NCBI GenBank assembly: GCA_009733575.1
Contig: ML769460.1
Location: forward strand, 145,676 to 209,675
Direction: 5' to 3'
DNA from: Gymnopus androsaceus JB14
Taxonomy: Eukaryota; Basidiomycota; Agaricomycetes; Agaricales; Omphalotaceae
Length of the DNA: 64,000 bases
Shown here: in pieces, positions 27,275-64,000 of the stretch
How positions within the stretch are numbered: the stretch's first letter is position 1
How the letters are laid out: the number at the start of each line of letters is the position of its first letter
Translations under genes and position numbers: made by a program
Notes under the pieces: generated by a model
Databases searched by the model: none
The model's input: only the letters and a program-made list of their open reading frames with translations
Told to the model about the DNA's origin: nothing

Positions 27275-27560
27275 AACCTATGATGACCTAGGGAACCTAG
27301 GCTACCCTGGTCACCTTGGGTCTTCCAGGCTACCCCAGGCTACCTTAGGCTACCTCAGGTTACCTCAGGTTCCTCAGGTTAGCTCAGGTTTACTCAAGTT
27401 TACTCAGGTTGCCTCAAATTCCCAAGGTTTATCCCTAAATCCTAGGCAACCTAGGTGACCTCAAAGAAACTGAGGCAGTCTAGGCAACCTAGGTGGCCTA
27501 GGAGACCTAGGTATCCTTAGGTTCCCTTAAGTCTCTTTAGGTCATTGTGGGTCAACCTAA
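27275..27560. repeat. Array of ~10-bp CTCAGGTTAC-like units with inverted arms
   Basis: Units such as AGGCTACCTT, AGGTTACCTC and AGGTTTACTC run in tandem in the centre, flanked by CCTAGG-rich palindromic arms on both sides. No gene. Confidence 0.7.
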
Positions 27561-28159: not shown

Positions 28160-29584
28160 ACTAATAGAAGAGCTTGTGGCGGTAGCTGAAGTAACCTGTA
28201 TCACTGGTAAAGAACCTCCGACATACATTCCATCTACCGCAGTTGATTCTTCCTTCGAATCATCACTTTCCATATCTTCACTAGTAAGTACTACTACTTA
28301 TCAGTTCCACTCGCAAGATTTTTTTCAAACAATCCTCCTCAATATCCTAGTTCCAATTCTTGCCACCTCGTCGTTGTGTTCTTTGTAGAGACTAGTCGGG
28401 ATACAGAGTCAGAGGGTGCCAAAGTTGAGAAATCTGACAGTGTCTCTGTATCCCAAACGGTCCCGGAAAATAAAGCACTATCTCGAGGTGTGCTTCCTCG
28501 CAAGTTTGAAGCGCGAAGAACTACCATTATTGTGCAATAGTACTACTCTCTATTGGATTAGAGGGCGCCATAGAATTCAAGCTGTGTCGGCGTCGGCGAC
28601 ATAGCTGTACAACTGCAACCGATAGGAGAAGAATGAAGAAGATTGTCGAGAAAGTAGCTGCAAGTATTACAGCTGTCAGACTTGATTTTCTAGTGGTTTC
28701 AGTTGATATAGATGAACTCGCAGGTTCGGAACTGGAGGACATGCTTGATGTTGAATGGATTTGGGTAAACTCGGACATTGTTCCTGACAACAAGGAAGTG
28801 AAAGTCCCAGTGGTGCTAAGTGGGTTATTTTATCAAATTGGCCACTTTATTGACGGATCTCTCTATATGATAGATAAACCTACCTCGGATTGAGTTCACT
28901 GGTAGTGGTCGACGTCACAGTGTTATTATTAGTCTTGGACGGCATGGATGAGCCCGCTGGGGATGTGGATCTACTTGACGGGGGGATATTGCTAAAGAGG
29001 TTCAATGAATACTCAAATTAATTATCAGTCACCAGTAGATGTCCACTCACCCTGTCTCTGTCCCCCCTGCATCTAAATTTCCTATGGTGAAGTCTGAGCT
29101 ACTCGCTCTGTGATTGTCCATCAAAGCTTTAGATACGATGTGATGCTAAGGTGATTGCATGCTCACAAGTCACTCATGAACGACGGTAATACGATCTGTA
29201 GACGGTGTATCCTGTGCAAAATTAGTGAAGGCGCAGATTCGAATTGTACCAAAAACATACCCCGTAGAAGTTGCGGTGAGTTTTACTGTCCCTGTAGACT
29301 TTTTTTGGGGGTTGACCGTTGTGTCGTCTTCTAATTTTTCGCCACTGGGTCCATCGCTCAGCAATTGAACAATAAAAGCCTGGCTCACTTGTGGAAGATC
29401 TCCTTGCTGAAGGACCCAGGTCCCTGTCACCGTAGGGGAAGCAGCTCCTGTAGTAGCACTAATCTGTGCAGACAAAGTTGTATGAATACTATGCAAAAGT
29501 AGAACTGAATACAGCGGCCTATATTGATGCGTTAGAAGGATGCTCAAGCGAAGGAATATCAGTTCACCAGGCTAGTAAAAACAT
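28160..29584 (-). pseudogene. Copy A of the stalked single-pass membrane protein family, decayed
   Basis: Homologous to copy B (31,098-32,894). Recognisable exons: 29,568-29,584 (17 nt, start ATG), 29,174-29,518 (345 nt, signal peptide end plus extracellular domain), 29,051-29,107 and 28,884-28,991 (Ser/Thr-rich stalk), then a last exon with a hydrophobic membrane segment and an Arg-rich stop-transfer near 28,630-28,690. It has no micro-exons: the 57-nt exon is followed directly by the 108-nt stalk exon. The cytoplasmic tail is broken by a CAA-to-TAA change near 28,527 and later stops, and the last exon joins out of frame by +1. Expression of a truncated receptor cannot be excluded. Confidence 0.75.
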
Positions 29585-31097: not shown

Positions 31098-32894
31098 TTA
31101 CGACACTATAGAAGAGTTCGTGGCGGTAACCGAAGTAACCTGTATCACTGGTACAGGACCTCCGACGTGGATTCCATCTACTGCAGTTAATTCTTCCTTC
31201 GAATCATCATTTTCTATATCTCCACTAGTACTACTGCCAGTCCCACTCGCAAGATTCTTTTCAAACAATCCTCCTCGGTATCCTAGTTTCAATTTTTGCC
31301 ACCTCGTTGTTGTGTTCTTTATAGGGACGAATCGGGATACGGAGTCGGAGGGTGCCAAAGTTGAGAAATCTGACAGTGTCCCTGTATCCCAAACGGCCCC
31401 GGAAGGTGTAGCACCATCTCCAGGTGCACTTCCTTGCAAGTTCCATTTGAAACGCGAAGAATTGTACCATTGTTGTGCAATAGTACTGCTCTCGCTTGGA
31501 TCAGCGGACTCCATAGAATTCAGACGGCGTCGGCGACATATCAGTACAACTGCAACCAGTAGAAGAATAATGAAGAGGATTGTCGCAAAAATGACTGAAA
31601 GTATGGTAGCTATCAAGTTTGGTTTTTCGGTGGTTAACTTGGCTCCGTCAGCTGGTATAGAGGAGCCCGTAGCGATGGAGGAAGCGTTCGGTGTTCGAAG
31701 TGTATCCAGTGCAGTTGTTGAAGAGGGGAGAATGAAGGTGGAGGGTGAAGTGGAAGTGCTGCTAACATCGTTCCTAGATCATGCTATGAATTATTATGGT
31801 AGAGCTTACTTTAAAGTGGTGCTTACGATGTCAGCTTTGTTGAATCAAAAGTTGGTTGAGAGCTATTTTGACAAATTGCCAGTGTGTGTTAATTATTGAA
31901 GGATCTTTCTATATGATAGATAAACTCACCTCGGATTAGAAGCATGAGATTCAGTGGTCGACGTAGTTGTACTAGTCTTGGACGACACGGATGAGCTCGG
32001 TTTGGATGTGGATTTGATAGATTGCGATGTACTATGTTTCGAGGAGCCACTGCTAAAGAAGTCTACTTGATTCAATTATTGGTTGATACTAGATGAACAC
32101 TCACTCTGAGGGACCATCGGAGGACTCGTTATCGCTGAAGTTTACTTGTATCAACTACCAGTTAGTACTAGATGAACACTCACCCTTTGGCACTATCCTT
32201 GTCATTGTTGCTGCTAAAGAAGTTTGCTTGAATCAACTACCAGTTAGTGGTAGTAGATGAACACTTACCTTGATCCTGAGGATGGTTTTTCGGTCGAGCC
32301 ATTGCTAAAGAAGCTCAATCAATTTCCAGCTAGTACTAGATGGTCACTCACTTAGAATCAAGTTGATCTGGTCCCGTTGTATCCAAATTCGCTATGTCAA
32401 AACTTGAGCTGCTCGCTCTACCGATTGTCCATCAAAGCTTCAGATGCAATCGGATTCTAAGGTGAGTGTCATGCTCACAAGTTACTCGAGGGCGATGGTA
32501 ATACAATCTGTAAACGGTGCGTCCTGAGCAAAATTAGTGAAGGCGCAGATACAGATTGTACTAAAAATATACCCCGTAGAAGTTGCGATGAGTTCTACCG
32601 TCCCTGTAGACATTCGTTGGGGGCCGACCGTTGAGTCATCTTCTAATTTCTCGCCACTGGGTTCATCTCTCAGCAATTGAACAATGAAACCCTGACTCGC
32701 TTGTGGGGGATCTCCTTTCTGAAGGACCCAGGTCCCTGTCACCGTAGGGGAAGCGGCTCCTGTGGGAGCACTAATCTGTGCAGAAAAAGCTGCGTCAATA
32801 CTATGGGAAACTAGAAGGGAATACAGCAGCCTATTGATGTGTTAGAAGGATGCTCAAGCAAAGGGATATCGGCTCACCAGGCTGGCGAAAACAT
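31098..32894 (-). CDS. Copy B: secreted-domain, micro-exon stalk, single-pass membrane protein (440 aa)
   Basis: Exons in transcript order: 32,878-32,894; 32,486-32,830; 32,352-32,417; 32,269-32,304; 32,184-32,213; 32,105-32,134; 31,930-32,052; 31,098-31,773. They sum to 1,323 nt, and every junction is GT...AG in phase 2. The first exon is only 17 nt (ATG plus five codons); its frame is fixed by joining to the hydrophobic signal-peptide core. A domain of about 95 residues follows, probably a beta-sandwich like other agaric cell-surface proteins (TGTWVLQKGDP start), then a Ser/Thr/Asp stalk encoded partly by micro-exons, a membrane segment of about 25 residues near 31,590, an Arg-rich stop-transfer, and a cytoplasmic tail of about 145 residues. 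It resembles cell-wall sensors in layout only; the function is unknown. Confidence 0.8.
32105..32417 (-). other. Micro-exon array of copy B
   Basis: Three exons of 36, 30 and 30 nt (32,269-32,304; 32,184-32,213; 32,105-32,134) follow a 66-nt exon. They are separated by introns of about 47-55 nt that resemble each other closely (GTGAGTGTTCATCTAGTACT ... CTTCTTTAG). Every micro-exon starts after AG with C and keeps phase 2 on both sides. They encode Asn/Ser/Asp/Lys-rich decamers to dodecamers in the stalk. Confidence 0.85.
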
Positions 32895-52075: not shown

Positions 52076-52764
52076 CACCAACAGAACATTTCTCTCTCTG
52101 ACAAGCATTTCAGAAGCAAGTTGTTTGTCAATACAAGAAAGATTTCCACAGGGCTCTTGAGTATACTATGCATAGTATAAACTGAGGCTCTTATGCAAGC
52201 GAGTTCACGTCCTTATGCCAGCCGAAATCCAGTCGAATTATCTGTCTTCTCTCCTTTACGCAGATTCTCATTCTCAAACTCTCGATACTCTATCGACTCG
52301 GATATGTTCGGAATATTGCTGTTAAATGTATGGTACGTGTTATCAGTCATTCAAATCCCATCTCGATATCAAGATGGTTCATAAGACAATGCGTATTTAA
52401 ATGGATAACTGACAAGATAGCGTATCACACCTCAACCGCAGCAGGGCTGTGCAACGATTTAGGGCTCACTATACGGTGGTGCCAACCATCCAGGAGTTCG
52501 ATCTCAATCATCTCTGTTCGGCGTCGACTTCATTGATTCGAACGATGTGCATCATCATAAGTATAGCTTCCTCCCTGCCTTTCATCTCATTTCTTCTTAG
52601 TACTCCACCGACCACTGTCTCTCCTTGCAATGTTTTCGCCAGCCTGGTGAGCCGATATCCCTTTGCTTGAGCATCCTTCTAACACATCAATAGGCTGCTG
52701 TATTCGCTTCTACTTTCCCATAGTATTGGCACAGCTTTTTCTGCACAGATTAGTGCTCCCACAG

Positions 52765-52997
52765 TGTAACGGGTATAATTCCCTATTTGGTTAAATATTA
52801 CTTTATTAGGAATTAGCCCCGGACTACTTAAATAGATTACGATACAACTACATATCTTATCTATCTACTTAACCTCTTACCACTACTCTCGATTACTCGA
52901 CTATCTACGCCTGTACTTCTCGTACCTAGTGCTCAATACTAAGCACTGTCTGGCTTAGCTCCCGAGTGATTTAGAATCCACGGTAAGAGCCCTTACA
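52765..52997 (+). repeat. 5' LTR of Gypsy element 2
   Basis: Begins TGTAACGGGTATAATTCCC and ends GAGCCCTTACA. Identical to the 3' LTR except for one base. Confidence 0.97.
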
Positions 52998-53230
52998 TAT
53001 TTTTTAAGCCTCAGAATATTGTCCGCTAGGGACGACATTACTGGCATAGGAGAAAATTTTATTCTCCCTCCTTTGTGCTTTACACGGTGGCCACACAACC
53101 ACTGAACAAACGGCATAATCGCTCGGAAACCCGAGCGATCTTGGAGGAGAGTAAACAACTCCCTTATTTTAACTATTCCCCATCGTCGTATACAGTCAAC
53201 TCCGACCAAGTTTTGACTTATAATAATAAA
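52998..53230 (+). other. Leader of Gypsy element 2
   Basis: Between LTR and gag ATG. No standard tRNA-complementary primer-binding site is obvious after the LTR (TATTTTTTAAGCC). An in-frame open stretch from 53,075 would extend gag upstream, but the ATG at 53,231 in an A-rich context is the better start. Confidence 0.5.
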
Positions 53231-56200
53231 ATGTCTTCTACTGCTACAATAAAACCTGGTAATACGGCACAAACCAAAGTGCGTAAGGTATTCCCCCACA
53301 TTAGAAAATCACCTGGGGCTTCAGAGAATAATTCTGAAGCTGGGTTAGAGAAAGTGGGGGAAAAATCGCAACAAATCCCAGGAGGCTTCGAGACCCCCAA
53401 AGCTGGTGACACAATTGAAACTCCAGCACAGTCCTCACAGCCTTCGGGATCCGTCATCGGCGGGAATGTGTTGAACAGGACGGAAGCATTAGACCTGATG
53501 AAAAATGAACAGGCTAACATTTCCGGCAGTGGGAGCAGACGAGGTGGGAAAACAAAACTGGCTGGAAAATCCAATCCAGGAAGAAGTCTGGACCATGAAA
53601 CGCCCAGCAGGAACCCTAGGGGTTCTTCAAAAATTCCGACAGATGCAACCAAATTGTCGAATCAAGTGACAATTGGTGAAAGTGGATCGGAATCTAATTC
53701 CAATTTGAGTGACGGTACTCCAGCGAGGCCACTATCGAATTCGATGATGCCCTCGCGAAGCACACCTGATCCCAGCCGCGTCGACCATACAGAGATCGAT
53801 GAGGATGGGACAGATATACCACTCTCGCGATTTATTTCAAGCTTACCTAGGGACGATCCAGGTCGGGTTGATCGTTCACGATCAAGATCCCCGGATCGGG
53901 GTCCTCGGTCGGCATCACCTGTGCTAAGCAACGCTCAAGGAAAGAAGCGGAAAGGCAAGGAACGCGAGATTAACCCACCGGAGAAAAATACCGGTAATTC
54001 GGAATTGTCTCCCAACGACTCTGCATCACAAAGAGGAAGCAGGGAAGTAGTGGGAATTCCGAGGTTGACTAAAGCTGAACCGAAACAGTCGGCCAAAGCG
54101 TCGAATATATCGATTAATACCAGTGCCACGCAGGCTAGAGCATTGCGGGATAACTTACGAAAAAGAGTTATATTGCAGATGTTACACGACTTGGATTGCA
54201 TGACAAATGGTGTAACGAATGTCCCAAACCAGGGTATTACTTTCGTAGAGGAATGGGGATTCGACCCGCGAACACCAAACGTAAGGGTGAACGCTGACCA
54301 AATCCCAGATGAGGAAGCTAAACCGTTTCAGGAACAATACCCCGAAATAAAGAAGCAGGCCCAACCTCAATTACCGAAGGTGAATAAGCGAGCTGATGGA
54401 CAAACCATTGACCGGAATTCCCAAAATAAGAAGGGGCGGGCAGATAGAAGGCGTAAGCGTAACGATAAGCAAGATCGTAACGTAGGAAAGCCTACACCCC
54501 CACCCAATGATGGTAATAACAACTATCATCGAGGAGGAGCTGGTGGTGGCCCCCCTGATGGATCGTCCGGATCGTCAAATGACGATGGAGGCGATGATGG
54601 CACTGGCAGTGAGGATGATGACTCTGAAGAAGAGAATGCTCGGAATAGTGAGCAGGAGTATAATTCTCGAAAAAAGAAAACCAAATCTCGAGGATTGACA
54701 CCTGCACTTACTCGACGCTATCATTCAGAAGCACCGAGTGATAGTATGGAAGTTAAATTTGAATATGACCCAACTCCCCGTTCTGAAGAAGAAATTCTTC
54801 GAGTAGCTTTTGAACAATATCAAAAGTTGATTGAATTCCAATTGTATGGGTCACCGGTGAAAATAAACTCGGCGGCACATAAAACAATTGTTCAGAACAC
54901 CCCAAAACCGGGGAAATACGGTGGAAGCACGAATTATGCGGTATTCGACGATTGGATAGTGGGATTCATCCAATGGTTGAATATCGTAGATAATTGTGGG
55001 CCAGCGACACGTTGGAGCCACAGTCGTCAAGCACATGTATTGACGTCTGCTGACATAGTGCGAGTAAATACCCTTGGGGCGTTCCTGGAAGGGGAAGCCT
55101 TGAGGTGGTATAGATCGACGGTTCAACGGGTTCCAAGTGGTTTTCATGTGGAAACAACAGATCCATTGGTAAACCGCTGGTCATTTATGCAGGTAGTGAA
55201 CGGCCTGTATCAGAGGTTCATTCACGAAGCTTCTATTTCGGAAATGTCTGACAAGTTTTATCAAGTTAAGTACATTCCTAGTAAAGGTGTTCAGAGTATG
55301 TTCGAAGAATTGGAGAGATGGGCTACCTGTATGCCTACCCCTCCAGATATCCATACATTCAAGAAGCGAATCATGCTCTTGGTGCCATCTGATATCTGCA
55401 AAGACATGACCAAGATTAGGGGTGTCACAGCAGAATCCTCGACAGTTGACGAGTTAGTCAAGGCAGCTATTGCTTGTGAGAAAAGCGAGCGCGCCAACAA
55501 ATATTATGACAATGCGAGAGTTGCTGCAGCACAAAACCAGAGTGCAATGCGCAGTGCTTACAGGGATAATAACTCATTGAGGGATCGGAATACATCTTCC
55601 GTGAAACCTAATGAGTCTCGTTCTCCCAAACGTCTACAAATTGTCGAAGATCGACGGTATTCTGTACCTGACCACAAAAACCGTGTCAAATACAACGAAC
55701 GGAAGGATGCAAAAGAAAGACAGCGTACATCCAGATCGGTTCCCCCGGGTGCTTGCTTTGATTGTGGAAAAATAGGCCATTTCAAAGGAGATCCTAAATG
55801 TGAGAAACCTAGTACCAATGTCAAAAGTGATTCGAAAAATGCATCTCGTCCCCCACGTATGTACAAGATCACGGAGGAGGTGCAGAAAGATGGTGAACGT
55901 TTATTCCGACTAGAGATTTCAGAGTCGGATGGGGACGTTGAAACCACGGATGAAGAAATATATGCTCGTTATGCATCGTCCACAGAGGATGATGCAACGG
56001 ACCAACGGCTGGAATCCTTGTCTGAGGATGAACGCGACCCTTGGGGAGGATCTCAGTATGATAGTGATGATGCGGATGAGGATTACTTACCGTCTAGCGA
56101 GAATACCGCTGACGCACCACCGTTGGAGGAGCGATTAGGCCATATGAGTGATTGGGACTCCTTCGCAAATCACTGGAAGTCGAAACTGGATGAACAGTTC

Positions 56201-56908
56201 AATGCCGCATGTGAGGAAACAGATACTTCACTCGACATTGAAAAAGATCCAGATGAGATTCACACGCTCAATGTCACGGAGTATATTCGATCCATGGACA
56301 CTACCAAAGACGGTGGTTTCCAGGCTACGTTAAAACCACGAAAGATAAGGAGTTCTCGTGTTGGTCAAAGACCCACCCGAGGTAGCAACCAGAATAGATG
56401 TCTGTGTGCTATGGTGGAGATCAACGGGGTAGACTCTTTCGCGTTATTCGACAGTGGTAGCACTGCGGATGCACTAAGTCCTGATTTCGCTAGAATAGCT
56501 CACACGGAAGTTTTTCAGTTGGAAAACCCGGTGACTTTGCAGCTTGGAACTAAAGGCAGTCGTTCGCGAATATCTTATGGGTGTTACGTACCTTACAGAC
56601 TCCATGGAGGAAAAGACCATGGCGATGTAAGCGGAAAAGATTATATGGACATTGCTAACGTGGATCGTTATGATGTTGTTTTAGGTACAGTGTTCATGCG
56701 AAAGCATGGGATAGCTTTGGACTTCGAAAATAACACAATCCGTGTGAAAGGGAAGAAAATACCTACACTCACGGAAGAGGAAGAGCATAGCGAGCTTGCT
56801 CGTCGCTATGCCAAGACTGTATCATCCACTATCCATATAAAGGATGGGGAGGAGATCCCGGTAAAGCATCGACCCAATAAATATGGGACTGTTGAAAGTG
56901 AGAACTGA
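53231..56908 (+). CDS. Gag-protease polyprotein of Gypsy element 2 (1,225 aa)
   Basis: A single uninterrupted frame. The N-terminal ~480 residues are Ser/Pro/Gly-rich and charged with low complexity. A capsid-like Gag core follows (about residues 500-760). Near residue 840 is a zinc knuckle, CFDCGKIGHFKGDPKC, with two residues more than the standard spacing before the last Cys. An acidic linker precedes a retropepsin domain with LFDSGSTAD near residue 1,070 and DVVLGTVFM near residue 1,150. The frame ends with TGA at 56,906-56,908; pol continues in the same frame. Gag and protease together before a stop is consistent with the stop regulating the amount of Pol. Confidence 0.9.
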   Translation: MSSTATIKPGNTAQTKVRKVFPHIRKSPGASENNSEAGLEKVGEKSQQIPGGFETPKAGDTIETPAQSSQPSGSVIGGNVLNRTEALDLMKNEQANISGSGSRRGGKTKLAGKSNPGRSLDHETPSRNPRGSSKIPTDATKLSNQVTIGESGSESNSNLSDGTPARPLSNSMMPSRSTPDPSRVDHTEIDEDGTDIPLSRFISSLPRDDPGRVDRSRSRSPDRGPRSASPVLSNAQGKKRKGKEREINPPEKNTGNSELSPNDSASQRGSREVVGIPRLTKAEPKQSAKASNISINTSATQARALRDNLRKRVILQMLHDLDCMTNGVTNVPNQGITFVEEWGFDPRTPNVRVNADQIPDEEAKPFQEQYPEIKKQAQPQLPKVNKRADGQTIDRNSQNKKGRADRRRKRNDKQDRNVGKPTPPPNDGNNNYHRGGAGGGPPDGSSGSSNDDGGDDGTGSEDDDSEEENARNSEQEYNSRKKKTKSRGLTPALTRRYHSEAPSDSMEVKFEYDPTPRSEEEILRVAFEQYQKLIEFQLYGSPVKINSAAHKTIVQNTPKPGKYGGSTNYAVFDDWIVGFIQWLNIVDNCGPATRWSHSRQAHVLTSADIVRVNTLGAFLEGEALRWYRSTVQRVPSGFHVETTDPLVNRWSFMQVVNGLYQRFIHEASISEMSDKFYQVKYIPSKGVQSMFEELERWATCMPTPPDIHTFKKRIMLLVPSDICKDMTKIRGVTAESSTVDELVKAAIACEKSERANKYYDNARVAAAQNQSAMRSAYRDNNSLRDRNTSSVKPNESRSPKRLQIVEDRRYSVPDHKNRVKYNERKDAKERQRTSRSVPPGACFDCGKIGHFKGDPKCEKPSTNVKSDSKNASRPPRMYKITEEVQKDGERLFRLEISESDGDVETTDEEIYARYASSTEDDATDQRLESLSEDERDPWGGSQYDSDDADEDYLPSSENTADAPPLEERLGHMSDWDSFANHWKSKLDEQFNAACEETDTSLDIEKDPDEIHTLNVTEYIRSMDTTKDGGFQATLKPRKIRSSRVGQRPTRGSNQNRCLCAMVEINGVDSFALFDSGSTADALSPDFARIAHTEVFQLENPVTLQLGTKGSRSRISYGCYVPYRLHGGKDHGDVSGKDYMDIANVDRYDVVLGTVFMRKHGIALDFENNTIRVKGKKIPTLTEEEEHSELARRYAKTVSSTIHIKDGEEIPVKHRPNKYGTVESEN

Positions 56909-56959
56909 CGGTCAGTGGGCGGTGCTGAGCTAGCGCTTTCTGACAGGGCAGCGCCACCC
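56906..56959 (+). promoter_or_regulatory. Candidate stop-codon readthrough signal between gag-protease and pol
   Basis: AAC-TGA-CGG at 56,903-56,911, with pol open in the same frame right after the stop. An 8-nt spacer (56,909-56,916) is followed by a potential stem pairing 56,917-56,927 with 56,949-56,959 (ten pairs, one of them G-T, and one C-A mismatch; loop about 21 nt). UGA-CGG with a downstream hairpin is a known readthrough context in several plant RNA viruses, and murine leukaemia virus has an 8-nt spacer before its pseudoknot. A point mutation from CGA remains possible. Confidence 0.55.
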
Positions 56960-59900
56960 TGGTCGAGGTTCAGTCCCTCTGTTGAAAACGTTACGGAGGA
57001 ACTGGAGGAGAGAATAGCATTAGATCGAAACTTACCTGTATTACTAGGCCCCGAGGACGAAATATCCATAGAGGATATGGAAGCCATGGTGGATGGTGTA
57101 ACCTCCGGATCGTTCATTGATAAAGGTTTCAATGCACGGTTACATGAGGTTGGGAAGCTGGTAGACGAATTTCAATTACAGAAATTCGGTTCTACAGCAT
57201 CTGAGGAGGTGAAAGTGCGAAAGCCCCCAGAAGTAATGGAGACTTTAAACGCAGTATCGGAGAAGTTTAAGAATAAAATAAACAACTCTACTCCATTATT
57301 GGATCAAATTAAGTACACGGAAAAGGATATACCTAAGCTCCGTGAACGATGGCTAGATACATGTAAAGACATCATGGGTGGGGTCCCCGAAGAGATACCA
57401 CCCTTACGCGAGGTAAACCATACCATCCCGTTAATTGATGAATCAATACACTATCGATTGTATCGTCCGAGGTGCCCAGACTCCTTGAGAACCTTGTTGA
57501 CTGAGAAGATCGCGCGTTACACGCGAGCTGGCTGGTGGAAACCCATGTCCGTTGGCCAGGCATCGCCAATGTTATGTTTACCAAAGAAAGATGGTGGATT
57601 AAGGACTACCATCGACTGTAGAGAACGAAATGCAAATACGTTCAAAGACGTTACCCCGCTTCCAGATCAGGATGCGTTGAGGATGGACGTTGCAAGGCGA
57701 AAGATTAGATCAAAAATAGACTTATCTGACGCATACGAACAAGTCCGAGTGGTTGCTGAGGACGTGTGGAAGACAGCGTTCTCAACTGTTCAAGGTACTT
57801 TTGTAAGTACGGTATTGCAACAAGGTGATTGCAATGGACCGTCCACTTTTCAGCGTTTGATGAATACAATTTTCCGAGATTATATCGGTGTATTCATGCA
57901 CGTCTACATAGATGATATATTCGTGTTCAGCGACACAGTAGAAGAACACGAGCAGCACTTACAAATCATATTCGACACCCTTAGGAAACAACATCTCTTC
58001 CTAAAGGCAAGTAAATGCGAATTATATGCAGCGGTAATGGACTGCATGGGTCATGTAATCGATGACAAAAGTTTACACGCGGATGCTGATAAACTTGCAA
58101 AAATTTGCGAGTGGAGGCAGCCACGTAACTATAACGATGTGCAGAAGTTTTTGGGACTCGTGAATTATCTGGCTCACTTCCTACCTGATGTGACCGCATA
58201 CACGAACCCGCTATCGGAAATGTCAAGAAATAACCAGCCGTTCTTCTGGCGGCCGGTCCATGACCTTTGCTTTGAGAGAATAAAGAACTTATGTTGCAAG
58301 GTTCCGATTTTACGACCCATCGACCCCAGATTGAAGATCCCTATCTGGGTGGTATGTGACGCGTCAGTATCTGGCGTTGGTGCCCTATATGGGCAGGGTG
58401 AATCTTGGCAAACTTGTAGACCTGCTGGGTTTATGTCAAAGAAGTTCTCGGATGCGCAGAGAAATTACCGCGTATTTGAATGCGAAATGTTGGCGGTCCT
58501 TGAGGCACTCTTGAAATGGGAGGACAAATTGATTGGCTACAAAATAAACGTAGTAACGGACCACGAGGCCCTGACTTTCTTCCAAACTCAAAGGAAGTTG
58601 AGCAGTCGTCAGATGCGTTGGATGGAATATTTAGCGCGTTTCGACATCGAAATCACGTATATAAAGGGCGTGACAAATAAGGTCGCTGATGTACTTTCAA
58701 GATATTATGAAAGTGACAACGAGGATGAGCAGCACGCGTGGAGAGAATACGTCAACGCTGATGCTCGTCTGGATAAATTGAGTGAGGACTTACCTCTAGG
58801 AAGGAAGGAGGAGATAATTCGTCGCGCTGAACAAATGATGGCACAATGGGAGGCCCGAGATCAGGTTGAACCTCGAGAGTTGGAAGCAGAAACACTGGAA
58901 CAAGCGAGGGAACCTGAGATTCCCGTTAAAGAGGTCAATGGTCCTAATCCCACAATTCTTGAGTCCAGAAACAATATAGCGGGCAAAACCGAGCGAATAG
59001 AGTCGGATCCCGAGTTTTTGGAGGACATAAGGAAATGCTACAAAACGGATACGTTGTTTACTAAGGTTCTGACAAAACCGATTGATCATCCACGCTTTGA
59101 CATCAAAGATGGACTGATTTGGACGGAGAACCTAACTGGTGAAAAGGTGCTATGCATACCTGAAAGTTCTAAAGGTATGCGTTCATTACGTGGTACTATC
59201 CTAGAGCAAGGTCACCACAGTGTTGGACATTTTGGCCCCCAGCGTACTGCCGACTACGTGAGACGTTGGTACTGGTGGCCAAGGATTTATAGCATGTGTG
59301 ACAAGTTTTGCAGGTCATGCGAGCACTGTCACCGTGCAAAGGCCGAGTATCGTGCTCCGGCGGGTAAGCTTCACAACTTGCCAATACCATCTCGGCCTTG
59401 GGAATCCATTGGGATGGACTTTATAGGTCCGTTCCCAGAGATGAAAGGTTATAATTATCTGTGGGTGGTAATTTGTCGACTTACGTCGCAGGTCCACTTA
59501 ATACCGTGCAACACACGAGACACGGCAACAGACCTATCTTTGAAGTACATGCAGGAGATTGTGAGATTACACGGTCTACCTGCATCTATAGTCTCAGACA
59601 GAGACCCGAAGTTTACCTCCACATGGTGGAGAGAATTACATCGATTGCTGGGAAGCAAGTTGTTGATGTCCACATCGTTTCACCCTCAAACGGATGGAGC
59701 GACTGAGCGGGCGAATCGCTCAATTGCGCAAATTTTTAGGAGCGCCATCAGGGCGGATCAGCATGATTGGCTGGTAAAAATACCTTATGTTGAATTTGCA
59801 CTCAACTCCAGTAGGAATGAGTCGACAGGGTATGCTCCCTTCGAACTGACTTATGGTTATATGCCATCGATGATGTTCAAAATTGAAAATAGCAGTGAAC

Positions 59901-59962
59901 TACTGCCTGGGATCAGAGCTTTTGGAATCCAGGCAATACAGAGCTGTCATGGATGCGCATGA
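56909..59962 (+). CDS. Pol of Gypsy element 2: RT, RNase H, integrase
   Basis: No ATG is needed if translated by readthrough. RT: LPKKDGGLR near residue 225, KIDLSDAYEQ near 270, FMHVYIDDIFVF with the YIDD catalytic pair near 333. RNase H begins with VVCDASVSGVGA near 484, with an FECEMLAVLEAL block after it. Integrase: zinc finger (HHSVGHFG ... CEHCHRAK) near 768-812, catalytic GMDFIGP near 835, SDRDPKF near 897 and GATERANRS near 932. The frame runs into a stop at 59,962 just after a one-base shift near 59,930; the remainder is in the next frame. All catalytic residues are present. Confidence 0.92.
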   Translation, partial: RSVGGAELALSDRAAPPWSRFSPSVENVTEELEERIALDRNLPVLLGPEDEISIEDMEAMVDGVTSGSFIDKGFNARLHEVGKLVDEFQLQKFGSTASEEVKVRKPPEVMETLNAVSEKFKNKINNSTPLLDQIKYTEKDIPKLRERWLDTCKDIMGGVPEEIPPLREVNHTIPLIDESIHYRLYRPRCPDSLRTLLTEKIARYTRAGWWKPMSVGQASPMLCLPKKDGGLRTTIDCRERNANTFKDVTPLPDQDALRMDVARRKIRSKIDLSDAYEQVRVVAEDVWKTAFSTVQGTFVSTVLQQGDCNGPSTFQRLMNTIFRDYIGVFMHVYIDDIFVFSDTVEEHEQHLQIIFDTLRKQHLFLKASKCELYAAVMDCMGHVIDDKSLHADADKLAKICEWRQPRNYNDVQKFLGLVNYLAHFLPDVTAYTNPLSEMSRNNQPFFWRPVHDLCFERIKNLCCKVPILRPIDPRLKIPIWVVCDASVSGVGALYGQGESWQTCRPAGFMSKKFSDAQRNYRVFECEMLAVLEALLKWEDKLIGYKINVVTDHEALTFFQTQRKLSSRQMRWMEYLARFDIEITYIKGVTNKVADVLSRYYESDNEDEQHAWREYVNADARLDKLSEDLPLGRKEEIIRRAEQMMAQWEARDQVEPRELEAETLEQAREPEIPVKEVNGPNPTILESRNNIAGKTERIESDPEFLEDIRKCYKTDTLFTKVLTKPIDHPRFDIKDGLIWTENLTGEKVLCIPESSKGMRSLRGTILEQGHHSVGHFGPQRTADYVRRWYWWPRIYSMCDKFCRSCEHCHRAKAEYRAPAGKLHNLPIPSRPWESIGMDFIGPFPEMKGYNYLWVVICRLTSQVHLIPCNTRDTATDLSLKYMQEIVRLHGLPASIVSDRDPKFTSTWWRELHRLLGSKLLMSTSFHPQTDGATERANRSIAQIFRSAIRADQHDWLVKIPYVEFALNSSRNESTGYAPFELTYGYMPSMMFKIENSSELLPGIRAFGIQAIQSCHGCA

Positions 59963-60506
59963 TGCGATTATAGAAGCACGAGTGTTCCAAACGCATCAGG
60001 CAAATAAGAAACGCCGTGCAGAACCGGATATTCAAAGAGACTCGCTGGTTTATTTGTCAACGAAAAATCTTAATCTCCCAAAAGGTAGAGCTTCGAAACT
60101 TTTACCGAAGTTCGTAGGCCCTTATCGGGTGGAGGAAGCTTATCCGGAAACGTCGAACTACGTTCTGGACCTTCCGGATGAACTAAAGGGTCGTAGGTTA
60201 CATGATAAATTTCATGTGAGCTTGCTACGACCGTACGTTGAAACAGATGCGATTCTGTTTCCGAACCGGTCAAAACCTGAGCCTTACGATTTTGGCGCAC
60301 CGCCAGATGCGGAAGAATTTGTGGACTCAATACGGGCCCACGTCTGGAAAGGAAAAAAGGTCTTTTTCGAGGTATGGTGGTCCCTGGGTGATGTCACTTT
60401 GGAACCGTATGACACAGTGAAGAAGTTGAAGTCATTAGACGATTACTTTGCGACACAAAGCGTGTCGAGATGGCAGGACTTATCAAAGTCAAAGCGTCCC
60501 TCTTAG
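59925..60506 (+). CDS. Pol C-terminus of Gypsy element 2 with chromodomain-like end (+1 frame)
   Basis: Continues the integrase C-terminal region (MDAHDAIIEARVFQT; KFVGPYRVEEAYPET; DKFHVSLLRPY) and ends in a chromodomain-like block, VDSIRAHVWKGKKVFFEVWW ... TLEPYD, which in chromoviruses is thought to guide integration to marked chromatin. Joining it to the preceding frame needs removal of one base near 59,930 (CAGAGCTGTC). Because the rest of the element is intact and young, a sequencing insertion is a reasonable alternative to mutation. Confidence 0.85.
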   Translation, partial: ESRQYRAVMDAHDAIIEARVFQTHQANKKRRAEPDIQRDSLVYLSTKNLNLPKGRASKLLPKFVGPYRVEEAYPETSNYVLDLPDELKGRRLHDKFHVSLLRPYVETDAILFPNRSKPEPYDFGAPPDAEEFVDSIRAHVWKGKKVFFEVWWSLGDVTLEPYDTVKKLKSLDDYFATQSVSRWQDLSKSKRPS

Positions 60507-60673
60507 ATCTAGATTGAGATCATGATGGGAAAGAAACGCGATGCAAGTCTCGATCAAATTTGATTGGAACGAGTGCCTAAGCCTCTCGATGTTACAAATA
60601 GTAGGAGTGGTTGAGGAATTGAGAAACTACGCTCAATTCAACCTATCCCGTATCTTCTATACTACACAAGAAA

Positions 60674-62686
60674 ATGCAAGGTTATGGTTTCCCGGGTCCT
60701 TTTTACTACGGAATTCCTGCGCCACACGGTCATGTTCAAGGTCATTCGGGTTCCCCGGGACAAGGGGGACAAGCTTGGACCTTTGGAAACTTTGGCGATA
60801 ACGCCGAAGGTACGTATTGACTACAAGTCATTCTCCGCCAACTCTAAAAATTTGAAGGGGGAGGGACAGCTACCACGCCGTCAGCAGAAGTCTCGGCTCG
60901 AAATCAAGATTTGGGGCAACCGAGTCCAGCTCCGTTGCAGAATCAACCTCTAGCTACACAAGGATACCCCAATCCGAGCATGTATGCTGGCCCAACTCAA
61001 GCATACCCCAATCCCAACATGTATGCAAGCCCAACTCCTGTGTACGCGATGCCCCATATTCCACACCAACCCGTTTTCACACGTCCAGACCCTTACATTG
61101 GACAATTCACCGGAAATCCTTATCATCCGGTGATGTACGCTAATGGACACCAGGTTGAAACGTACCGCAAAGGTAGAGGTAAACGGAATAGAAACTTCCA
61201 CCCATACCAAGGCCCCGTGGTAATGCCCGGTCCAAACCACTTCCAGTCGATAACAGCCACCATCCCCACTCGAAAACACGCGAATGGAAATGGTCAACCT
61301 AAAGTATCGACACGAAACCTCTCGTCCTCAATGCACGCCCCATCAATGACTTACGAGGCTAAACTACAAGCCTTGGCGTGGTCAATCTGGGGACCTCTCT
61401 TGGCCATTTCGCGACCTAACGACTTCAAACCAGAAGCAATCAGTGGTCCTAGGGACGCTGAACACCTCTTCTACGCAACTAATGAGCAGCTCAACTACGC
61501 TGCTGCACTCATCGAGTTCCGTCCTGACGAAGGGCTTCCTGATGAAGTTGGATGGGGAACGGAGGATGGATCTCTGGTACCTACGGGATCTGTACTCGAA
61601 GCCATTCAGCAAGGTCGTGTACCGATTGAAGCTGAACCTCCTACGAAGGAAGAGCAGGAGAAGCTCAACCACGAAGTTCGGAGTGCTATCGAGCGATGCC
61701 AGAAACCTGGAGACTTCAACGCAGCGTATACTGTGTTTCAGAACGAGGTCCTGTTTACCTTATGGAACCTCCTTGCCAAAACAATTCCGAGTCATTCGGC
61801 TTCCAGACTGGTAATTCCCCCTCATCTCGCGTTACACGGTCAACTCTTCCGACCAGAAATGGTTTTCTGGCTAGGAAGATTCATGCCGGATCGACGAGAC
61901 CACGAAGAATCGATCCGTGAAGGTCGTAAGCGACTACAGACGGTGAGCGCGCCAGGGGTTAACGACGATGACCTAGACTGGCACTGTCTTTGGCTAGCTG
62001 TGCACGGCGACGCTAGCAACGCTCCCGGGGTGATGATCACACATACCGGGCAAGTCGACAAGTATGGGGTCCTTGGTTGGCTAACTATTCGGAGGCTCTG
62101 GGACTCGATCTACAAAGGTACCTTGGTGGACACATCGAAAAGAGCCGCTCAGAAGGCTAACTTAACTCGACACTTTCTTGAGTTAACTTGTACCCCCAAC
62201 CTATACGAGCAGGAGCTTAAAGGTGAAGGTCTCACTATCGGACCTCAGCGACTCTACTACCCCCCTGACTCAACCTTCGAAAACCGCACCGAAGTCGCAG
62301 CACACTTGGCCAAGTGCGGGATCTCCCTTACGGATATGGCACGTTACATGTCCTGGGGACTACAATACGTCTGCGACACGCTAAACCATCCTGGAACGGA
62401 CTCGGAAACAAGGAAACTCTACGTCGAGTTCTATCGAAAAGGTTTGGCACGTTTGCAATTCATTCGGATAAACGAAGGAGGTCGAGACCGCACATATAAT
62501 CTTCCCAGCTCGTTCCCCTTAGACGCGGTTCACGAACAACGACGACAGCGTTGTGAGAAACGGGAAATTCGCCATTACCAACCTGGGAAATCATCAAACA
62601 TAGTAACTGGGGACCACGACACGGAAATGGTCAACGTTACTAATAGTGTACAAGGTATGAGTATGATTGACGCTCCTCCTTTTTAG
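60674..62686 (+). CDS. Third, spliced ORF of Gypsy element 2 (654 aa), unknown function
   Basis: Exons 60,674-60,809 and 60,858-62,686, joined across a 48-nt intron (GTACGT ... TTGAAG). The joined frame is 1,965 nt. The ATG at 60,674 opens a Gly/Pro/Tyr-rich segment (QGYGFPGPFYYG); short repeats follow (YPNPSMYAGPTQA, YPNPNMYASPTPV), then a basic patch (KGRGKRNRN), then about 450 residues of ordered-looking sequence rich in Leu, Trp and Glu (QALAWSIWGPLLAISRPNDF; LFRPEMVFWLGRF). No signal peptide or membrane segment is evident, so it is not a typical env. I do not recognise the family. It occupies the place where Gypsy element 1 carries its own, different-looking accessory ORF. Confidence 0.75.
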
Positions 62687-62707
62687 ATTTAGGCTATAGC
62701 TCAATCT

Positions 62708-62719
62708 GGTTGGGGAGGA
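62708..62719 (+). promoter_or_regulatory. Polypurine tract of Gypsy element 2
   Basis: GGTTGGGGAGGA directly before the 3' LTR start TGTAAC. Confidence 0.8.
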
Positions 62720-62952
62720 TGTAACGGGTATAATTCCCTATTTGGTTAAATATTACTTTATTAGGAATTAGCCCCGGACTACTTAAATAGATTACAATAC
62801 AACTACATATCTTATCTATCTACTTAACCTCTTACCACTACTCTCGATTACTCGACTATCTACGCCTGTACTTCTCGTACCTAGTGCTCAATACTAAGCA
62901 CTGTCTGGCTTAGCTCCCGAGTGATTTAGAATCCACGGTAAGAGCCCTTACA
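62720..62952 (+). repeat. 3' LTR of Gypsy element 2
   Basis: Partner of 52,765-52,997; followed by the CACAG duplication. Confidence 0.97.
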
Positions 62953-63359
62953 CACAGGAGCCGCTTCCCCTACGGTGACAGGGACCTGGGTCCTTCAGAA
63001 AGGAGATCCTCCACAAGCGAGTCAGGGTTTCATCGTTCAACTGGTGAACGATGGACCCAGTGGCGAGAAATTAGAAGACGAGTCAACGATCGATCCCCAA
63101 CACATGTCTACAGGGATGGTAAAACTCGCCGCAACTTCTACGGGGTATGTTTTTGGTACATTTCGAATCTGCGCCTTCACTAATTTTGCTCAGGACACAC
63201 CGTTTACAGATCGTATTACCATCGCCCTCGAGTAACTTGTGAGCATGACACTCACCTTAGAATCTGATTGCATCTGAAGCTTTGATGGACAATCGGTAGA
63301 GCGAGCAGCTCAAGTTTTGATGTAGCGAACTTGGATACAACGGGACCAGAGCAATTTGA

Positions 63360-63666
63360 GTGAGTGCTCATCTGGTACTAGCTGGAAACTGATTAAGCTT
63401 CTTTAGCCATGAATCGGGCGAAAATTCATCCTCAGGATCAGAGTGAGTGTTTATCTGGTAATACTAGCTGGTAATTGATATAAGTAAACTTTTTTAGCGG
63501 TAACTCCTCGGATACGGACAGTGCCACAGAGTGAGTGTTCATCTAGTACTAACTGGTATCGATACAAGTAAAAATTCTCAGCGATAACTCCTCCGATGGG
63601 GACAGTCCCTCAGAGTGAGTGCTTATTTAATACCAACCGATAATTGATTCAAGTAGACTTCTTTAG
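63360..63666 (+). other. Micro-exon array of copy C
   Basis: Exons of 36, 33 and 33 nt (63,407-63,442; 63,498-63,530; 63,582-63,614) alternate with introns of 47, 55, 51 and 52 nt. The introns share GTGAGTG at the 5' end, CATCT.GTACTA.CTGG inside and TTTAG/TCTCAG at the end. The 33-nt exons are near copies of each other (GATAACTCCTCCGATG-like) and encode Asp/Asn/Ser-rich 11-residue repeats. Confidence 0.9.
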
Positions 63667-64000
63667 CAGTGGCTCCTCGAAACACAGTACATCGCTTTCT
63701 ACTAAATCCACATCCCAAACGAGCTCATCCGTGTTGTCCAGCACTGAACCTCATGCTTCCATTCCGAGGTGAGTTTATCTATCGTGTAGAAAGATCCTTC
63801 AATAATTTGCAATTCGTCAAACTAGCTCTCAACCAACTTTTGATTCAATAAATCTGCAAACGGTGTAAGCATCACTTTAAAAGTGAACTCTGCCATATAT
63901 AATTCATAGCGTGATCTAGGAACGTTGTTAGCACCACTTCCACATCCTCCTCCACCTTCACTTCCCTTTCTTTGACAACTGCATCGTCTACCCAAATGTA

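Follow-up and report, generated by a model that had tools for sequence, protein, structure and literature searches.

Can a gene lengthen its protein by multiplying an exon together with its intron? The question is raised by a locus at the right end of the window, as we call the whole 64,000-nucleotide stretch of DNA analyzed here, which covers positions 145676-209675 of a contig in the 83.3-Mb assembly of Gymnopus androsaceus JB14 that we searched. We consider it fairly likely, taking the observations together, that this locus and its relatives carry tandem exon-intron units in genes for predicted surface proteins, and that such units can be added without harm to the reading frame and would lengthen a stalk. 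The gene at the locus, copy C, has the database protein model P0002, and its 3' half reads as follows.

63360..63406, forward strand: intron 0, 47 nt (sequence)
63407..63442, forward strand: micro-exon 1, 36 nt, phase 2-2 (sequence; present in P0002)
63443..63497, forward strand: intron 1, 55 nt (sequence)
63498..63530, forward strand: micro-exon 2, 33 nt, phase 2-2 (sequence; present in P0002)
63531..63581, forward strand: intron 2, 51 nt, with CTAAC (sequence)
63582..63614, forward strand: micro-exon 3, 33 nt, phase 2-2 (sequence; present in P0002)
63615..63666, forward strand: intron 3, 52 nt (sequence)
63667..63768, forward strand: Ser/Thr-rich stalk exon, 102 nt (gene model)
63826..63864, forward strand: fourth candidate micro-exon, 39 nt, phase 2-2 (sequence and database model)
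63920..64000, forward strand: start of the transmembrane (TM) and tail exon, which continues past the window (region L006) to the equivalent of 64606 (gene model)

A sequence-only reading had given the micro-exon sizes as 36, 33 and 33 nt in C and 36, 30 and 30 nt in a second copy, B, with none in a third, A, and had each exon following AG, beginning with C and keeping phase 2 at both ends. All of these particulars were confirmed, every array micro-exon being bounded by AG..GTRAGT. The core of that description thus stands, but it had omitted the fourth micro-exon, which interrupts an apparent long last intron in both B and C, and the 5' part of C, which lies 10 kb upstream. With the fourth included, the micro-exons are symmetric in four cases out of four in each gene. 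From the sequence we infer that those of B and C would be spliced into the mRNA as exons. The two further copies within the window are these.

31098..32894, reverse strand: copy B, whole gene, 10 exons, CDS 1317 nt, 438 aa, 9/9 introns in phase 2
32304-32269, 32213-32184, 32134-32105, reverse strand: copy B array, micro-exons of 36, 30 and 30 nt (sequence; absent from the database model P0001)
31827..31862, reverse strand: copy B fourth candidate micro-exon, 36 nt (gene model)
28527..29584, reverse strand: copy A, without micro-exons; its open frame (257 aa) stops early in the tail compared with B

Among the array genes found, the open frame is complete in B only. Its exons measure 17, 258, 45, 66, 36, 30, 30, 123, 36 and 676 nt, so that the four micro-exons (36+30+30+36) make up 132 of the 1317 coding nucleotides, and its nine introns are GT..AG introns of 47-67 nt. 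A branch motif of the C/TTRAY type is found in seven of these nine introns and in six of the eight of C, the other two in each gene having no clear branch-site motif. A model of B that reads exon 2 through a 49-nt intron was discarded: it runs into trouble with an in-frame stop at the following donor, and database proteins show the intron. In copy A, otherwise laid out as B, a single 59-nt intron separates exon 4 from the stalk exon. Beyond the 3' end of A, at 27326-27416, lies a 10-nt CAGGTTACCT-like repeat in about nine copies.

These genes belong to a family of at least six copies (A, B, C, D, E and E2) among the best-scoring candidates when the assembly was searched with DNA and protein queries. 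A and B lie on the minus strand of the window and C at its right end; D follows directly past that end (in L006), while E and E2 are on another contig (L008). Three JB14 database proteins, P0001, P0002 and P0003, are encoded by family loci, and a protein database search found 16 relatives in Lentinula; the query of the search that matched the three JB14 proteins and of the first Pfam search was a first, partly wrong model of B, and the matches still fit the rebuilt one. In the open-licence papers searched we found no account of the family. E2 has a layout similar to that of A and B, without micro-exons, and with the junctions used here its exon 3 carries a 2-nt shift, whereas its database model, P0003, takes another junction and stays open. 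Comparison of the six paralogs gives 0, 0, 0, 3, 3 and 4 units, with three each in B and C, four in the decayed D and none in A, E and E2. Trees of the outer-domain exons and of the TM exon both split B, C and D from A, E and E2 (supports 0.998 and 1.000), so that the presence of the array requires one gain or one loss. A tail ending in LPPEYSSV is common to D and E2 (L006:5990-6290; L008:8230-8396) and unlike that of B and C; since D otherwise groups with B and C, this tail seems to reflect an exchange between paralogs.

What is repeated in the array is the exon and the intron together. When the units were aligned across copies, exons and introns both proved homologous, and the six within-array pairs (three in B, three in C) all scored above each of 1000 shuffles, which upholds the proposal of a tandem exon-plus-intron repeat. 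Tandem Repeats Finder (TRF) reports the array of C (63439-63679, period 84, score 268) and that of D (score 322); the array of B was not reported by this program, being too diverged. The B, C and D regions were each put through 500 dinucleotide shuffles, and no array with a period above 20 appeared in any of them. Exon identity between second and third units is 27/33 in C, 15/30 in B and 31/33 in D, and a complete intron with flanking exon sequence is contained in the tandem unit. The array introns had been called nearly identical; they are alike, but at 70-92% over aligned bases and 65-82% when gap columns are counted. The first intron of the array has one homolog each in A, E and E2, at the junction of exon 4 with the stalk exon, similar at its ends but with about one half to two thirds identity to array introns. 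The exon-intron unit had also been held to be frame-neutral, and so it is, at a length of about 80-90 nt: because all introns of B are in phase 2, a unit can be added, lost or skipped in frame, with a change of 10-12 residues in the protein.

That exons and introns alike are homologous is accounted for by tandem duplication of the whole exon-intron unit. In the mechanism that we propose, the segment would have been duplicated by slippage, unequal exchange or conversion, the unit being one symmetric phase-2 micro-exon (30-36 nt) with its downstream intron (about 50 nt), now in three to four copies in B, C and D. Each added unit would place its 10-12 residues after the folded N-terminal domain, ahead of the Ser/Thr-rich stalk. 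The stalk would become longer and more hydrophilic, and its role would most likely be a passive one, setting the distance of the outer domain from the membrane.

Whether the array still expands is another matter. The sequence-only reading had called it expandable, and this is right in so far as the number of units differs among paralogs and D has an extra one; as a statement about an ongoing process it is not supported, for B and C agree in their three units and in the order of these, and D is decayed. Judging from the alignments, unit gain has occurred in the past of the family. A reading that comes close to an even chance is that the array is old and static, its three units having formed once, before B, C and D split, and having since diverged, with their number fixed in the living copies. 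Units of B and C correspond position by position (intron 2 is identical at 45 of 48 bases), units inside one array are much less alike than these counterparts, and the sole change of number observed belongs to a decayed gene. Against this, the second and third units of D are 94% identical in their exons and have similar introns (42/49), from which it follows that the D lineage, once formed, gained at least one unit, and the closer resemblance of these units in C than in B suggests later homogenisation. D itself has a stop in exon 2, units of 35 and 25 nt and a lost acceptor. Its last unit shows a run of 1- to 3-nt deletions (L006:5350-5460), and these could be decay or, in part, assembly error. 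The boldest version of our own reading takes B for a live minisatellite, in which a strain-variable number of units and in-frame skipping would let one locus yield variants, some heritable and some produced by splicing, in the length, charge and N-glycosylation sites of a surface sensor or recognition protein; on present sequences we find this quite doubtful.

The state of copy C bears on which gene could be at work, for its 5' half is split by a mobile element.

52630..52764, forward strand: 5' piece of copy C, with exon 1 (52630-52646), intron 1 and the opening 71 nt of exon 2 (52694-52764)
52765..62952, forward strand: Ty3-type LTR retrotransposon interrupting copy C in exon 2 (LTRs at 52765-52997 and 62720-62952; CACAG duplicated at the target)
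62953..63359, forward strand: the rest of exon 2 (to 63144), exon 3 (63194-63238) and exon 4 (63300-63359) of copy C

The element is 10,188 bp long and has 233-bp LTRs that differ at one base of 233, TG..CA ends and a 5-bp target duplication. A domain search of its frames found reverse transcriptase, RNase H, integrase and a Tf2-1-like SH3 domain, in the order of Ty3-type elements. An assembly search with its LTR gives 14 matches, of which two are the element's own. A further frame of 591 aa follows pol, in the position of env (window 60911-62686), and has no match in Pfam (E up to 10) or in a phage collection. The insertion is probably young, and C a recently interrupted gene. Read into the LTR, exon 2 meets an immediate stop; with 10.2 kb inserted, the signal-peptide exon of C is no longer joined to the rest, and the interruption accounts for P0002 starting at an internal Met. 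Being broken, C does not now tune a surface protein, barring an unusual transcript; of the array copies, B is the one that could be functional.

The symmetric exons might instead serve alternative splicing, a single gene making several stalk variants, and this we regard as unlikely. Each internal exon can be skipped in frame, and the database models differ in this very way, with the micro-exons included in C and left out in B. In Lentinula raphanica, two pairs of similar models (P0004 and P0005, P0018 and P0019) differ by whole in-frame blocks at the same junction of domain and stalk. However, the database models are predictions, B and C are separate loci, and P0001 has other doubtful cuts. 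P0002 contains four micro-exons in the same places as our model of C, whereas P0001 omits exon 4 of B together with its three array micro-exons, has a different 12-nt exon instead of the fourth, and cuts five stretches from the TM and tail exon, so that it may be a poor model. P0001 contradicts our 10-exon model of B, and the two database models are discordant with each other. Since the predictors kept the micro-exons in one gene and dropped them in the other, similar arrays in mushrooms may be under-annotated.

The omission of the array from P0001 would also suit a degenerate, non-coding repeat, that is, a minisatellite inside one long intron or dead segment that the mRNA skips; C and D are moreover broken genes. 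Conservation is in line with this. In a codon-aware alignment B and C are identical at 74 of 93 micro-exon bases and at 175 of 202 bases of the array introns (p = 0.12), the micro-exons thus being conserved no better than the introns and giving no indication of purifying selection at the sequence level. Faster evolution of the micro-exons had appeared in a plain alignment (27/96 differences versus 27/202, p = 0.003) and was abandoned with the codon-aware one (19/93, p = 0.12). Their dN (0.31, plain alignment) does not exceed their dS (0.48), and we therefore make no claim of positive selection. Still, the three micro-exons are in frame in both B and C, while the dead copy D has units of 35 and 25 nt; P0002 includes them; and the array introns have strong donors (GTRAGT in eight of eight across B and C). 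Left unspliced, the arrays of B and C contain 7-13 stops in each forward frame. Of the non-zero length differences between B and C, five of the six in exons are multiples of three (6, 3, 3, 21 and 3), the sixth being in the last exon, where C has a 1-nt gap near its end that shifts the frame; none of the three in introns is (2, 10 and 2). We judge a non-coding array improbable.

Very improbable is the insertion of introner-like mobile introns that split a pre-existing Ser/Asp-coding exon, for although the array introns are alike and of comparable size, the exons are homologous too (second and third units of C and D), a 28-nt intron motif (up to three mismatches) occurs at three places in the 83-Mb assembly, all inside arrays and none in unrelated genes as dispersed near-identical introns, and DNA searches of the assembly yielded no further locus with an array among the best-scoring candidates.

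We return to tandem exon-intron units that lengthen a stalk, and to the protein in which they would act. The predicted protein of B begins with a hydrophobic part, continues with a domain of about 90 residues and a Ser/Thr-rich region, and after one hydrophobic segment and the residues RRRR ends in a tail, signal peptide and topology being judged by eye. The AlphaFold model of the array-less P0003 has a beta-rich domain at about 21-99, low confidence at 106-203 (pLDDT <50) and a long helix at 201-243. An extracellular stalk had been proposed, and this layout fits it: hydrophobic N-terminus, beta-rich domain, Ser/Thr-rich low-confidence stretch, one hydrophobic helix and tail. The membrane topology and stalk role of the B, C and D proteins are nonetheless predictions. 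The array falls at the start of the predicted disordered stalk. In the 13 of 21 sequences where a stalk could be measured, Ser and Thr make up 38-61% of it; it is 158 residues long in B, compared with 95 in A and 98 in E2, and ranges over 54-107 residues among ten Lentinula relatives. Tuning of charge, also proposed earlier, suits C, whose array micro-exons have net charges of -3, -3 and -4, but hardly B (0, 0 and -3); N-glycosylation sequons occur in all three array micro-exons of C and in two of the three of B.

Among known proteins the family resembles sensors of the Wsc1/Mid2 type, which in the excerpted text of PMC2885430 have a folded outer domain, a Ser/Thr-rich stalk, a single TM helix and a cytoplasmic tail, an arrangement predicted for our family as well; its outer domain differs in being beta-rich, without a cysteine pattern like that of the WSC cysteine-rich domain. 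Pfam gave no match above the curated cut-off for the first B model or six relatives, and neither WSC nor Mid2 was among the matches to that partly wrong model (E up to 10) or to the six relatives (E up to 0.5); UniRef labels P0003 and P0005 as 'Mid2 domain-containing'. The mannosylated Ser/Thr region of Wsc1 is described there as behaving like a nanospring (PMC2885430), and by analogy the number of micro-exons may set the length of the stalk.

Micro-exons in fungi and at animal parasite surfaces offer further comparisons. An abstract of 2024 describes functional microexons as previously undescribed in filamentous fungi. A Tuber gene family with multiple microexons is mentioned in PMC4986451, which cites work of 2012; it too is fungal, but as far as that mention goes its exons are codon-sized, alternative splicing is reported and the products are intracellular receptors, whereas in Gymnopus the exons measure 30-39 nt and the protein is a predicted surface one. 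The micro-exon genes of schistosomes, in the portions of PMC4350168 and PMC10526429 consulted, encode surface or secreted proteins with very small symmetric exons that can be skipped without loss of frame. Small symmetric exons and surface proteins (predicted in Gymnopus) are shared, but the coding region of the schistosome genes consists mostly of micro-exons and their introns run from 100 to nearly 5000 bp, while in B they account for the modest share given above, its introns are 47-67 nt and the lineage is unrelated. Were B a live minisatellite, it would be a fungal counterpart of these genes.

The closest parallel is CNN00420 of Cryptococcus neoformans, in which, according to the available extracts of Sharpton et al. 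(2008, PMC2395259), a repeat of about 107 nt comprising a whole intron and exon ends has been multiplied within the gene. The introns of that gene differ from each other little or not at all, splicing is supported by ESTs, the number of repeats varies among resequenced strains, and unequal crossing over, conversion or slippage were proposed (PMC2395259). Both are basidiomycete genes with an intron-containing repeat (about 80-90 nt in Gymnopus) through which introns are gained and the frame is kept; the Gymnopus introns differ in being 70-92% alike, the variation lies between paralogs, and the splicing is predicted. The Gymnopus case is a combination of known elements in a family absent from the open-licence literature searched. 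If spliced as predicted, its repeat unit would bring its own splice sites, so that copy number would alter the length of the protein in frame-safe steps while exons are not lengthened, and it would stand beside CNN00420 as a second basidiomycete example, in a predicted surface protein.
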